Shown here: in pieces, positions 8,771-13,537 of the stretch
How the letters are laid out: the number at the start of each line of letters is the position of its first letter
Position numbering within the stretch: the stretch's first letter is position 1
Assembly (NCBI GenBank): GCA_030645815.1
Contig: JAUSMW010000267.1
Span: 1 to 47,849 of the forward strand
Length of the DNA stretch: 47,849 nt
From: Candidatus Saccharimonadota bacterium
GTDB lineage: Bacteria > Patescibacteriota > Saccharimonadia > Saccharimonadales > Saccharimonadaceae
Direction: 5' to 3'
The notes under the pieces: model-generated
Seen by the model: only the letters and a program-made list of their open reading frames with translations
What the model was told of the DNA's origin: nothing
Database searches by the model: none
Program-made: the position numbers and the translations under genes

Positions 8771-11314
8771 ATGAAACTGTCAAAAACTTACGAACCAAAT
8801 CAGTATGAAACGAACATTTACGCACTATGGGAAGCCAGTGGTGCTTTTGAGCCTACAGGCGTTGGCGACCCCTACTCTATTGTCATGCCTCCACCAAATG
8901 CCAATGGCGACCTACACACCGGCCATGGTTTAACTGTTAGCCTGCAAGACATCCTCATCCGTTATTACCGTATGAAAGGCTTCGACACCATCTACTTACC
9001 AGGAGCCGACCATGCGGGTTTTGAGACCTGGGTTGTGTATGAAAAAGAACTCACAAAACAGGGTAAAAATCGCTTTGATTTTTCACGTGAAGAATTATAC
9101 AAACAGGTATGGGATTTTGTAAAGAAAAAGCGGGGGACTATGGACCTACAGCTGCGAGCACTTGGTGCCAGTGCCTCGTGGCAAAACCTGACATTTACCT
9201 TAGATGAAAAGGTCGTAAAAACTGTCTACAGTACCTTTAAAAAGCTTTGGGACGAAGGATTGATTTACAGGGGTGAGCGAATAGTTAACTACTCGACAGC
9301 CTACCAAACAAGCTATGCCGATATCGAGGTAGACCACAGAAATGTCAAAGGCACACTGTGGAATATCGCTTATCCAATCATCGACGGAGTAGGGGAGCTA
9401 GTTGTTGCAACAACTCGACCCGAAACCCTACTAGGCGACACAGCCGTTGCAGTACATCCAGATGACGAACGATATAAAGCCTTGGTTGGCAAAAAAGTAA
9501 TGGTACCAATTATCGAGCGGGAAGTCCCGATAATCGCTGATGAAGCAGTGGATAAAGACTTTGGAACAGGGGTAGTAAAGGTAACACCTGCTCACGACCC
9601 AAATGACTTTGAAATAGGGGTGAGGCACAATCTAGAACGTATTCAAGTAATTGGTTTTGATGGCAAAATGACTGCTGCTACCAAATATTACGAAGGTCAA
9701 GATGTCGAACAGGCCAGAAAAAGTGTCCTCGCTGCACTGCAAGCCGCTGAACTACGCCGTGGTGAAAAAGAAATCGAACACTCTGTTGGATTTGACTACA
9801 AAAGCGGCCTGCCAATCCAACCACTCATCAAAGACCAGTGGTTTATCAAGGTTCGACCTCTGGCGGACCGCGCAAAACAAGCCGTCGAAGCCGGTGAGAT
9901 TTCATTTTATCCAGCTGGAAAAGGCAGGGTACTCAAGCAATATCTCGACAACCTCCACGACTGGAACATCTCTCGCCAAATTCCATGGGGTATCCCAATC
10001 CCAGCTTTTGTTAATGCCGAGGACCATACTGATTGGATATTTGATGACCGCGTTGACCAGCCAACTATAGAAGTTAATGGCAAAAAATACATACGCGAAG
10101 AAGATACCTTTGATACCTGGTTCTCATCTGGTCAATGGCCATTCATCACTACCGATGTGGCGAGTGGTGGTGAACTCAGTCGCTTTTACCCAACAGATAT
10201 GATGGAGACAGGCCACGACCTGTTAGACCGCTGGGTTGCACGTATGATAATGCTCGGTCTATACGTCACCGACAAGGTACCCTTCAAAAATGTCTACATG
10301 CACGGTATGGTTTTGGATGAAAAAGGCCAAAAAATGAGCAAATCAAAAGGCAATGTCATTAACCCAATGGATATGATAGATAAATACGGCTCAGACGCGC
10401 TGAGACTGGGCGTAGTGGCTAATAGGTCTGCAGGACAGAATCAAGCCTTTGCTGTCGATAAAGTCGTCGCAGGGCGCAATTTTGCTAACAAACTATGGAA
10501 TATCGCTCGGTTTATTGAGGGCAAGATAGGCGAGCAAGAAATGCCACCCCTAGCGGATCCTCAAAATATTGCTGACCATTGGATAATCAGCGAACTTAAT
10601 GATGCTATCGATACAGTGGAGAAGTACTTGGCCGAATATCGTTTTGCCGAAGCCACCGATGTTGTTTACCATACCATCTGGGGTTCTGTTGCCGACTGGT
10701 ATCTAGAAGCCAGCAAGAAAAGCGACAACTTGCCGCTACTCGCCTGGGTACTAGAAACAATCTTGAAAATAACTCATCCGTTTGCTCCCTTTGTTACAGA
10801 AACAATTTGGCAGACCTTAGGCCTACACAAAACACCACTGATATCTCAGAGCTGGCCTGAAAAAGCCAAATACAGCGACATCGCCGCTGCCGAATTTAAC
10901 CAATTAAAAGCTTTGGTGAGCGAGACTCGATATGTCACACACGAGCTCGGGGGCAAAAAACAAATCTTACTATATGGTGAAGACAGCTTGATAGCTGATA
11001 ACGAAGAGCTGGTTGGCGTTCTAGCAGGTTTGGCCGAAGTTAAAAAGGCCGATAACCCTCAAGGGCTGCGCCTAGCCGTAGCTGGTAGAGAAGCCTGGCT
11101 CGATATTGACCAAAAAACCGTAAAACACCACCGTAAAAATCTAGAAAAACGCATAGCTGATATTGAATCTCAAATTAAGAATCTCGAGGGCCGCTTAGCA
11201 AATGAAAGCTACGTCAAAAATGCTCCGGAAGCTGTAGTCACAGAAACTCTCGAAACCCTAGTATCACAGCAGGCGCTCATCGAACGCCTGCAAGCTGAAT
11301 TACAAATTATATAG
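8771..11314 (+). CDS. valS: Valine--tRNA ligase
   Basis: PPPNANGDLHTGHGL (HIGH region), KMSKSKGNVINPMD, GADHAGFETW and a C-terminal coiled-coil (ADIESQIKNLEGRL...). Confidence 0.93.
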   Translation: MKLSKTYEPNQYETNIYALWEASGAFEPTGVGDPYSIVMPPPNANGDLHTGHGLTVSLQDILIRYYRMKGFDTIYLPGADHAGFETWVVYEKELTKQGKNRFDFSREELYKQVWDFVKKKRGTMDLQLRALGASASWQNLTFTLDEKVVKTVYSTFKKLWDEGLIYRGERIVNYSTAYQTSYADIEVDHRNVKGTLWNIAYPIIDGVGELVVATTRPETLLGDTAVAVHPDDERYKALVGKKVMVPIIEREVPIIADEAVDKDFGTGVVKVTPAHDPNDFEIGVRHNLERIQVIGFDGKMTAATKYYEGQDVEQARKSVLAALQAAELRRGEKEIEHSVGFDYKSGLPIQPLIKDQWFIKVRPLADRAKQAVEAGEISFYPAGKGRVLKQYLDNLHDWNISRQIPWGIPIPAFVNAEDHTDWIFDDRVDQPTIEVNGKKYIREEDTFDTWFSSGQWPFITTDVASGGELSRFYPTDMMETGHDLLDRWVARMIMLGLYVTDKVPFKNVYMHGMVLDEKGQKMSKSKGNVINPMDMIDKYGSDALRLGVVANRSAGQNQAFAVDKVVAGRNFANKLWNIARFIEGKIGEQEMPPLADPQNIADHWIISELNDAIDTVEKYLAEYRFAEATDVVYHTIWGSVADWYLEASKKSDNLPLLAWVLETILKITHPFAPFVTETIWQTLGLHKTPLISQSWPEKAKYSDIAAAEFNQLKALVSETRYVTHELGGKKQILLYGEDSLIADNEELVGVLAGLAEVKKADNPQGLRLAVAGREAWLDIDQKTVKHHRKNLEKRIADIESQIKNLEGRLANESYVKNAPEAVVTETLETLVSQQALIERLQAELQII

Positions 11315-12266
11315 CAACTGAGGTAGTTTGTGGTATATCGTCGCTTTTAATAGTTTGACGATCACCAATATTCACCGGACAGATAAACGTTGGAATTGCC
11401 ATTCTACCAACCTTAGCTTTCAATAACCTAGGGGAGGCTTTTTCTCTCAAATCTTCTTCGAACACTACACGGTGTGCTGTTGGCGGGGGAGCAGTAGGCA
11501 AGAATGATTCGGCACTGCCTCGAAAACATGCCACCTCAGTACCAGCATTCACCCATTCTCTAGTTTCAAGATCATAATACTGCAGGCCTGAACTGGTTTG
11601 CACGCTGTCGATTGTGTAGGCAGATTTGTCGTTATGCTGTTTGATGAGCAGCGGTACGCCGTCAGTTTCACCAACCGGTCTCATGCCATCTTTTGCATCA
11701 ATGTGGTACATGATGACCCTTGTTAATGTATGAGGTCTGGTAGCAAATGGATAAAAGTGCTGTAGATATTCGTCCGGATTAACTTCATTTTCTAGTGCCA
11801 CTTGTCGCAAATACGGCCTAGCAATACGTTCTATAATAAAGTTATTAAATAATCTCGCAGCATCCAGAGCCTTCACTACAACTTGCGGAGCACCTTTTTC
11901 TCTAAAGTCATGAACAGCGTCTTTATCTGCGTGGATGACGGTAGTAGGGTTAATTACTCCGTCAAATTCCGGATTAACTCCGCGAATACCGATATCCGTT
12001 GCAGAGTTCCCAGCTACAAATTCGTTGTAGCAAGGTTCACCATTTCTATCAACAAAACTAATATATTTTTCTGGTTCTCGTGGGTCATCGGTAAAAACCG
12101 TGACACTTGAATCTCCTCTTTCGTATGCCTGGTACATCTGTTTATGAGCCTCCAGAGATGTTGCCTCGACAACTTCTCCGAGCGCTACAATAGCAGCTTG
12201 TTCCGAGGCCTTGATTGGCATCGCAAATGGTTTACCGACTTCTAAATGTTGTTTAAGTGTATTCAT
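11307..12266 (-). CDS. Predicted Fe(II)/2-oxoglutarate-dependent (isopenicillin N synthase-like) dioxygenase
   Basis: C-terminal half reads LLIKQHNDKSAYTIDSVQTSSGLQYYDLETREWVNAGTEVACFRGSAESFLPTAPPPTAHRVVF...GRMAIPTFICP. This matches the HxD...(54 aa)...H pattern plus GLQ/WV/HRV landmarks of PF03171-type double-stranded beta-helix oxygenases. SD-like ggaggt upstream of ATG. Confidence 0.7.
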   Translation of the reverse strand: MNTLKQHLEVGKPFAMPIKASEQAAIVALGEVVEATSLEAHKQMYQAYERGDSSVTVFTDDPREPEKYISFVDRNGEPCYNEFVAGNSATDIGIRGVNPEFDGVINPTTVIHADKDAVHDFREKGAPQVVVKALDAARLFNNFIIERIARPYLRQVALENEVNPDEYLQHFYPFATRPHTLTRVIMYHIDAKDGMRPVGETDGVPLLIKQHNDKSAYTIDSVQTSSGLQYYDLETREWVNAGTEVACFRGSAESFLPTAPPPTAHRVVFEEDLREKASPRLLKAKVGRMAIPTFICPVNIGDRQTIKSDDIPQTTSVAI

Positions 12267-12322
12267 ATTGTACCTCCACCCTCAGACTAATTAGTTATGT
12301 AAATAGAGTCAGTGCAGAGGTT

Positions 12323-12346
12323 TTTAGTAAAAAAGTCTTTACTAAA
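12323..12346. promoter_or_regulatory. Perfect inverted repeat TTTAGTAAA-N6-TTTACTAAA (candidate operator)
   Basis: Read directly: tttagtaaa aaagtc tttactaaa, between divergent genes 11307-12266(-) and 12400-13080(+). Confidence 0.6.
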
Positions 12347-12399
12347 GCTCTATATCTAGTGTTGTATAGTGGTTTATAGAAACTAAATACAGAGAGAAT

Positions 12400-13080
12400 A
12401 TGAGTATTCAACGATTCGACCACCACATCCAGGCAGAGATTTTCGCCAAACTGCGTCACAGTCCGACTCTGCGCTACAAAGATCTCAAAAATCCCGAGCT
12501 AGAATCCAGCCAATTCATGTATCATTTGCGTGAACTCATCAAATTAAAATTAGTAGAAAAAACAGATGACGGATATTACAAACTGGCACCAAAGGGCGTG
12601 GAGCTGGCTCAACATTTTTCATCAGAAGTAGCTAATTTACAAGAGGCACCATTAACCTACTCGCTTATATTCCTACGCACTAAAACCAAAAAATGGTTTG
12701 TTAGTCATCGCAAAAGACACCCCTTTATCGGAAAATATGCTTGTATATCGGGTAAAGTTCACATGCAGGAAACCTTACGAACTGCTGCGAAAAGAGAGCT
12801 GAGTGAATTTAGCAAAGGAAAAATTGATATACCATTGATATATTCGGGTTACGTATCTGTTTTGGTGCATCAAAAAAATGCTCTCAACCATGTCACGGGG
12901 CCAGTGTGGTTCGCTGACAATCTAGAAGAAATCGAACTTCCGGAAATTAACAGAGGCGATACAAAATGGGTAGAATGGGAAAAGATAGACTACAACGAAT
13001 TTATCCCCGGCTGGCGTGAAATAGTCGAGATGATAGAATCTGGCAAATCTGATTATCTTGATTTAGAGTTTGACGTCTAA
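12400..13080 (+). CDS. N-terminal winged-helix + C-terminal Nudix-like domain protein
   Basis: N-terminus QAEIFAKLRHSPTLRYKDLKNPELESSQFMYHLRELIKLKLVEKTDDGYYKLAPKGVELA (wHTH). Nudix-like box GKVHMQETLRTAAKRELSEF (G-x5-E-x7-REL-x-E). Confidence 0.75.
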   Translation: MSIQRFDHHIQAEIFAKLRHSPTLRYKDLKNPELESSQFMYHLRELIKLKLVEKTDDGYYKLAPKGVELAQHFSSEVANLQEAPLTYSLIFLRTKTKKWFVSHRKRHPFIGKYACISGKVHMQETLRTAAKRELSEFSKGKIDIPLIYSGYVSVLVHQKNALNHVTGPVWFADNLEEIELPEINRGDTKWVEWEKIDYNEFIPGWREIVEMIESGKSDYLDLEFDV

Positions 13081-13081
13081 T

Positions 13082-13537
13082 CTATTCGTTGTGATAGGGT
13101 AGGCCGCGGTGGATTGATTGAGCCCGATACAACTGCTCTACCAAAATTAGCCTGATTAACTGATGGGGAAAGACGAGAGGGGATAGTGACCACACAATAT
13201 CTGCCCTACTCCGAACTTCTTCGCTGACTCCGTAGGCTCCGCCAATTATGATAACTACATTTTTAGACTGCTCTAATGGTGATACTAATGCTTTCGACAA
13301 AGTAGGTGAGTCGTACATTTTGCCCCGCTCGTCCATTAGCACTATAAAATCATCAGGATTGAGCTTGTTTAATATGTCACCTGACTCGTTTTTGATAGCC
13401 ACTGCGTCCTTTTGCGACGAGTTTGGCAACAATATCCATGACAGATTAAACGGTGTGCTCAAGCGCTTCTGGTACCGCTCAACAGCGTCAGCTAGCCAAG
13501 GTTCGTGCTTTTTACCAATTGCAATAATATTAATCAT
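13082..13537 (-). CDS. rlmH: 23S rRNA (pseudouridine1915-N3)-methyltransferase RlmH
   Basis: MINIIAIGKKHEPWLADAVERYQKRL...VIIIGGAYGVSEEVRSRADIVWSLSPLVFPHQLIRLILVEQLYRAQSIHRGLPYHNE, characteristic SPOUT C-terminus. Confidence 0.95.
   Translation of the reverse strand: MINIIAIGKKHEPWLADAVERYQKRLSTPFNLSWILLPNSSQKDAVAIKNESGDILNKLNPDDFIVLMDERGKMYDSPTLSKALVSPLEQSKNVVIIIGGAYGVSEEVRSRADIVWSLSPLVFPHQLIRLILVEQLYRAQSIHRGLPYHNE

Follow-up and report, generated by a model that had tools for sequence, protein, structure and literature searches.

Head-to-head insertion of a divergent IPNS-type oxygenase gene and a putative nucleotide-sensing repressor gene in a Saccharibacterial genome

The stretch of Saccharibacterial DNA analysed here (the window: 47,849 nucleotides, JAUSMW010000267.1, which is contig C221 of the 1.46-Mb draft genome G000, 94% complete with 6% contamination) carries two divergently transcribed genes, one encoding an IPNS-type Fe(II)/2-oxoglutarate (2OG)-oxygenase-like protein of 319 amino acids (11307-12266, minus strand) and the other a 226-residue protein (12400-13080, plus strand) that joins a winged helix-turn-helix (wHTH) domain to a pseudo-Nudix domain. 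We lean, without great confidence, towards reading the pair as a laterally gained cassette in which the oxygenase, acting on a substrate of the nucleotide class, is accompanied by its own local nucleotide-sensing repressor. An earlier note on this DNA (the original prediction) had placed both open reading frames (ORFs) and the 133 bp that separate them (12267-12399) correctly, and had missed both the insertion of the whole interval and the membership of the regulator in a large family that has an operator of its own.

The two genes make up a 1,766-bp insertion (11315-13080) that fits flush between two stop codons, those of valS (8771-11314, plus strand) and rlmH (13082-13537, minus strand), the end of the oxygenase gene overlapping that of valS by 8 bp. 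In G001, a genome of the same genus, valS and rlmH stand end to end, 7 bp apart, and this empty site aligns with the window minus the insert with no gap at the 11314|13081 junction; the two genes are adjacent in most of the other relatives tested as well. No obvious target duplication was found at the ends of the insertion. Given the rarity of the oxygenase, gain of the cassette is preferred over its loss. Contamination of the bin was considered and rejected, since the flanking genes are 79-80% identical to those of G001 (80% for rlmH) and stand in the same order.

Profile-profile comparison gives sound grounds for regarding the oxygenase as a very divergent IPNS-type protein by homology. The protein scores under the threshold of every family model, with no match in the Pfam (including PF03171), NCBIfam or PHROGs libraries, and searches of PDB sequences found nothing; the original prediction of a PF03171-type oxygenase thus holds as controlled profile-profile homology but not as a match to any family library. 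An hhalign query consisting of the window oxygenase and its relative from genome G388, set against ten IPNS-family proteins (nine plasmid proteins and a fungal IPNS), gave a probability of 93.9, an E-value of 1.5e-7 and a score of 57.8. The homology is considered sound because this score is far above those of the controls, namely 60 column shuffles (best score 26.2, E 0.0087), the reversed alignment (23.6, E 0.022) and the unrelated proteins of like length within a tested set of 90 (best score 21.7, E 0.04). The G388 relative, the only one found, is 44-47% identical and comes from the same family (JALQVV010000119.1, Candidatus Saccharimonadia bacterium). The oxygenase was found in no further genome among overlapping samples of the order (393 genomes), the phylum (380), the family (394) and the genus of G388 (10), and no relative was present on the plasmids, phages or viral contigs searched, genome contigs yielding only the G388 record.

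The residues named in the original prediction are all present: H211-N-D213, H265-R-V 54 residues further on, GLQYYD and W238. The predicted Fe(II) ligands of the HxD motif (H211-N212-D213, 11628-11636, minus strand) and the predicted third ligand, H265 of HRV (11472-11474, minus strand), are in register with those of the IPNS family (DIOX_N/2OG-FeII_Oxy, PF14226/PF03171), and this putative facial triad is invariant in the G388 relative. The helix that precedes them is in register too, as are the GLQ and HRV landmarks, R183-VIM-Y187 (11706-11720, minus strand), which aligns with the R-x3-Y strand ahead of HxD, and R288 (11403-11405, minus strand), which aligns with the ERxS of the IPNS family as the counterpart of the RxS arginine. 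The window oxygenase differs from that family in its N-terminal half, in having RxA instead of RxS (R288 and A290 are invariant in both oxygenases), and in the distance from the last histidine to the arginine, which is 23 residues, compared with 9 in IPNS and 15 in thymine-7-hydroxylase. The latter, a fungal IPNS-type enzyme, is a precedent for the oxidation of nucleobases by this fold; at its R-x3-Y strand Arg190 and Tyr194 bind the cosubstrate, and Arg190 also the substrate (PMC4787775). By position, the window oxygenase has equivalents of its triad and of Arg190, Tyr194 and Arg286, whereas the equivalent of Ser288 is alanine. Use of 2OG is likely, though not certain, because the RxS serine is alanine in both oxygenases.

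By itself, the window regulator matches DUF7347 (E = 6e-5) and NUDIX (E = 1e-3) under the curated Pfam cut-offs; its assignment as a wHTH (residues ~1-75) followed by a Nudix domain (~85-215) is firm because it matches the family profile (E = 4.7e-77, the window protein itself being 1 of the 12 model rows) and because the G388 regulator passes the Pfam NUDIX cut-off. Its Nudix box (GKVHMQETLRTAAKRELSEFSKGKI, 12751-12825, plus strand) is impaired, with phenylalanine in place of the second glutamate of REuxEE (RELSEF), and so departs from the active-Nudix signature GX5EX7REUXEEXGU. Members of the family occur in 30 of the 61 genomes searched, often several per genome, and 41 of them divide into group A, with a canonical box (REL.EETG), and group B, with an impaired box in which the second glutamate is mostly lysine (RExxEK) and is phenylalanine in the window protein, some members having an even more degenerate box. 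An impaired signature is a mark of the NrtR and AraR regulators (PMC4666351), which the family also resembles in its winged helix, its local operators and, putatively, the sensing of a ligand by the Nudix cleft. The family profile and alignments bear out the original description of an NrtR-like protein with its domains reversed, the Nudix domain of NrtR being N-terminal and its wHTH C-terminal. The family would work like NrtR, yet is not classed as NrtR, since its domain order differs and since its neighbours encode nucleotide enzymes or the oxygenase where NrtR has targets in NAD or sugar metabolism; a further difference is the group-B operator, TTTGASTCAAA near the ATG, the comparison with NrtR being one of features and not of direct sequence relationship. 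No description of a wHTH-Nudix regulator family in these bacteria was found in the open-licence literature, the coverage of which is incomplete, and the family, widespread in Saccharibacteria, is apparently undescribed. The genome of the window has a second wHTH-Nudix gene (L036:4881-6031, G000:C159) with a canonical box, followed by a gene with a weak nucleoside deoxyribosyltransferase match; the same pair is found in G001 (L045).

The palindrome TTTGASTCAAA precedes the regulator start in the discovery set of group B (8 exact sites and 4 with one mismatch), and none was found within one mismatch upstream of group A. Among 50 independently fetched group-B genes, the validation set, 30 have an exact site and 38 a site within one mismatch, compared with shuffle expectations of 0.02 and 0.44, the genes being related so that the 30 exact sites do not amount to 30 independent events. 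Ten genomes contain the exact palindrome 11 times, nine at a group-B regulator locus and two elsewhere, usually with one site per genome; in G042 it lies between a kinase-regulator operon and a divergent CYTH-like gene. Typically the palindrome is placed 12 bp ahead of the ATG of the regulator and ends one base before it, directly after a TATAAT-like box. If the message is leaderless, its transcription start would be covered by the palindrome there, a position that suggests repression rather than activation. The regulator of the window is taken, with fair assurance, to be a local DNA-binding repressor.

The perfect inverted repeat reported in the 133-bp gap was recovered at 12323-12346 as TTTAGTAAA-N6-TTTACTAAA (N6 = AAAGTC), and can be described as two odd palindromes, TTTASTAAA, with centres 15 bp apart. 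Its chance probability in mononucleotide shuffles is ~0.03, only moderately unlikely in such AT-rich DNA; within two mismatches it is the sole match in the 1.46-Mb assembly, compared with three for a control, the same pattern read backwards. By analogy with the TTTGASTCAAA of the paralogues, it is a candidate operator of the window regulator: an operator at the regulated promoter, as in NrtR, is present family-wide, and the window has a perfect repeat of different sequence. The G388 fragment contains TTTGACTCAAA. The ribosome-binding site of the oxygenase gene, GGAGG, can be read at 12273-12277 (minus strand), 6 bp 5' of its ATG. The only exact TTTGASTCAAA in the genome of the window (G000:C242:51549-51559, L087) has no regulator ORF near it and is probably a chance occurrence.

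Group-B regulators are usually divergent from, and often beside, genes of nucleotide metabolism. In the validation set the partners include divergent CYTH-PRK/uridine-kinase-like genes (13 of 50), HD/YfbR-like genes (8), co-directional AAA_28 kinase-like genes (4), downstream MazG genes (8), and deoxyribosyltransferase, Nudix and DUF84 NTPase genes (one or two each). A nucleotide-type ligand of the window regulator is plausible because paralogous regulators sit beside these nucleotide enzymes. Two further partners, from two other families, are 64%-identical proteins encoded divergently from group-B regulators (L154:1967-2881, minus strand, and L163:3752-4657, plus strand); they have the pattern R-x3-Y...HxD...H...RxA (LRLLRYDG...HxD...LWHGVDR...ER-x-A-VILFVDAP) and score 27.6 against the IPNS profile (E 0.005), compared with at most 20.9 in 100 shuffles, which is suggestive of a second, different oxygenase-like family. 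Other group-B partners have no Pfam match (L055:4098-4910, L181:3916-4578, L043:4337-4930 and L170:2146-2853), although those of L043 and L170 look like members of a single family, of HD-type hydrolases.

The oxygenase gene of G388 is likewise divergent from a wHTH-Nudix gene, across a gap of 101 bp and at a different genomic place. G246, which belongs to the genus of G388 and has no oxygenase, has the gene order Mur ligase - MazG - regulator - nucleoside deoxyribosyltransferase - trmB, and G388 differs from it only in that the oxygenase alone is added between the regulator and the deoxyribosyltransferase; the order in G246 is the older state, and it is the oxygenase alone that entered a conserved locus. 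Orthology of the two oxygenase-linked regulators was rejected by the approximately unbiased (AU) test of a tree in which they are sisters (p-AU 1.8e-6), with the caveat that the regulator of the window sits on a long branch. The oxygenase has thus come to stand head-to-head with two regulators that are separate members of one family, which indicates repeated recruitment: neither regulator has the other as its closest relative, so the association was assembled more than once. This placement is the best evidence for a functional link, and the oxygenase is probably the target of its regulator. The distribution of the oxygenase and the regulator tree reject an old conserved module, and the original expectation that the pair is conserved across Saccharibacteria was not borne out, the oxygenase being very rare and the regulator family common and normally serving other genes; what remains of it is that a regulator adjoins the oxygenase in both of the genomes that have one, which are only two.

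In the mechanism that we propose, a dimer of the regulator bound to the inverted repeat would shut off both divergent promoters, and the binding of a nucleotide-like ligand by the cleft of the Nudix domain would release the repressor, just as NrtR is released by ADP-ribose. Using Fe(II) and O2, and probably 2OG as well, the oxygenase would then oxidise a nucleobase, nucleoside or nucleotide, perhaps for the salvage or clean-up of modified nucleotides. Of the original proposal that the wHTH-Nudix protein senses a nucleotide and controls the oxygenase, local control is likely and the ligand plausible. The original prediction had also called an O2-dependent enzyme unexpected in this lineage, which it is not: use of O2 is no anomaly, because the genome of the window and the three relatives tested encode subunit I of a heme-copper oxidase (COX1), and operons for a bo3 ubiquinol oxidase have been published for Saccharibacteria (PMC8407418, PMC6031116). 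A further publication on this point concerns freshwater members of the candidate phyla radiation (PMC9166423).

Several observations weigh against the proposed cassette. The oxygenase is represented by only two sequences. With alanine in place of the RxS serine, the cosubstrate may be something other than 2OG. AlphaFold gave no usable fold for the oxygenase from one sequence (predicted local distance difference test, pLDDT, 34) or from two (pLDDT 47), the C-terminal half being poorly modelled; Foldseek searches of the PDB with these low-pLDDT models returned no meaningful match, and the models neither support nor refute a double-stranded beta-helix. The sequence of the window repeat is not that of the family operator, which TTTTAGTAAAA matches with two mismatches (p ~0.14); this segment is readable as TTTGAGTCAAA with a symmetric exchange, the two mismatches alone having no significance. 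A promoter scan of the 133-bp gap found no consensus sigma-70 site. In the validation set, 22 of the 50 immediate upstream genes cannot be assigned to the known partner types, among them one further Nudix protein and one 2'-5' RNA ligase-like protein. Finally, the nucleotide-related neighbours in G388 predate the oxygenase, and hence are no proof of its substrate.

Whether the substrate belongs to the nucleotide class is, in our estimate, an even question. With the same architecture and regulation, the oxygenase might act instead on a non-nucleotide small molecule (a host metabolite, an amino acid, or a plant or microbial secondary metabolite), with the nucleotide serving only as a signal, for instance one that reports growth or the state of the host. 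IPNS-type oxygenases are established to have very diverse substrates, no protein of known function is closely related to this one, and some group-B members adjoin genes that have no clear role in nucleotide metabolism; however, the regulators beside the oxygenase in both genomes have relatives that serve mostly nucleotide enzymes, and the oxygenase of G388 lies between the regulator-MazG unit and the deoxyribosyltransferase. We judge a non-nucleotide substrate rather unlikely, while still the strongest of the alternatives. It is improbable that the wHTH-Nudix protein is, at least in part, a working nucleotide hydrolase that sets its own level, the pair forming a two-enzyme clean-up unit: the box does retain G118, E124, R132, E133 and E136, and the protein has weak MutT-like matches, but the second glutamate is lost in the window and across group B while the sister group A retains EE, the impaired box is that of NrtR/AraR regulators (PMC4666351), and a conserved operator precedes the group-B genes. 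That the pair is a chance passenger, two functionally unlinked genes brought in by a random lateral insertion, is very improbable; the oxygenase is rare (two genomes) and its insertion sites differ between them, but it stands head-to-head with different regulators of one family in two separate genomes, both ORFs are intact, and the active-site residues are invariant at 44% identity.

Should the oxygenase act on free nucleotides, it would bring a new reaction into the nucleotide salvage of organisms thought to live on what they scavenge. It is a tentative and somewhat doubtful generalisation that group B comprises undescribed single-target repressors which respond to free nucleotides, and which have more than once captured Fe(II)/2OG oxygenases acting on free nucleotides; this would constitute a new route of nucleotide oxidation in host-dependent bacteria that have to use scavenged, possibly modified nucleotides. 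Gene regulation in reduced, host-dependent bacteria is little known, and a repressor family with an operator readable from the sequence, mostly one site per genome and recognisable nucleotide-handling targets offers testable sets of regulator, operator and ligand.

On plasmids, bacterial IPNS-like genes adjoin genes for a nucleoside hydrolase or for a BMP-type transporter (L081, Thioclava plasmid p3; L076, pKF715A), and are possible nucleoside-oxidising relatives. Elsewhere in the wHTH-Nudix family, one branch whose Nudix box is largely lost is convergent with a gene for a conserved protein of ~250 amino acids (FDLPTxHL...IPPKAR...EIERRR; L047:5672-6427, L054:4132-4878, L060:4318-5055, L062:2256-2993 and L066:4263-5033), and a ThyX-like gene (L044:3796-4743) lies immediately 3' of an outlying wHTH-Nudix gene.

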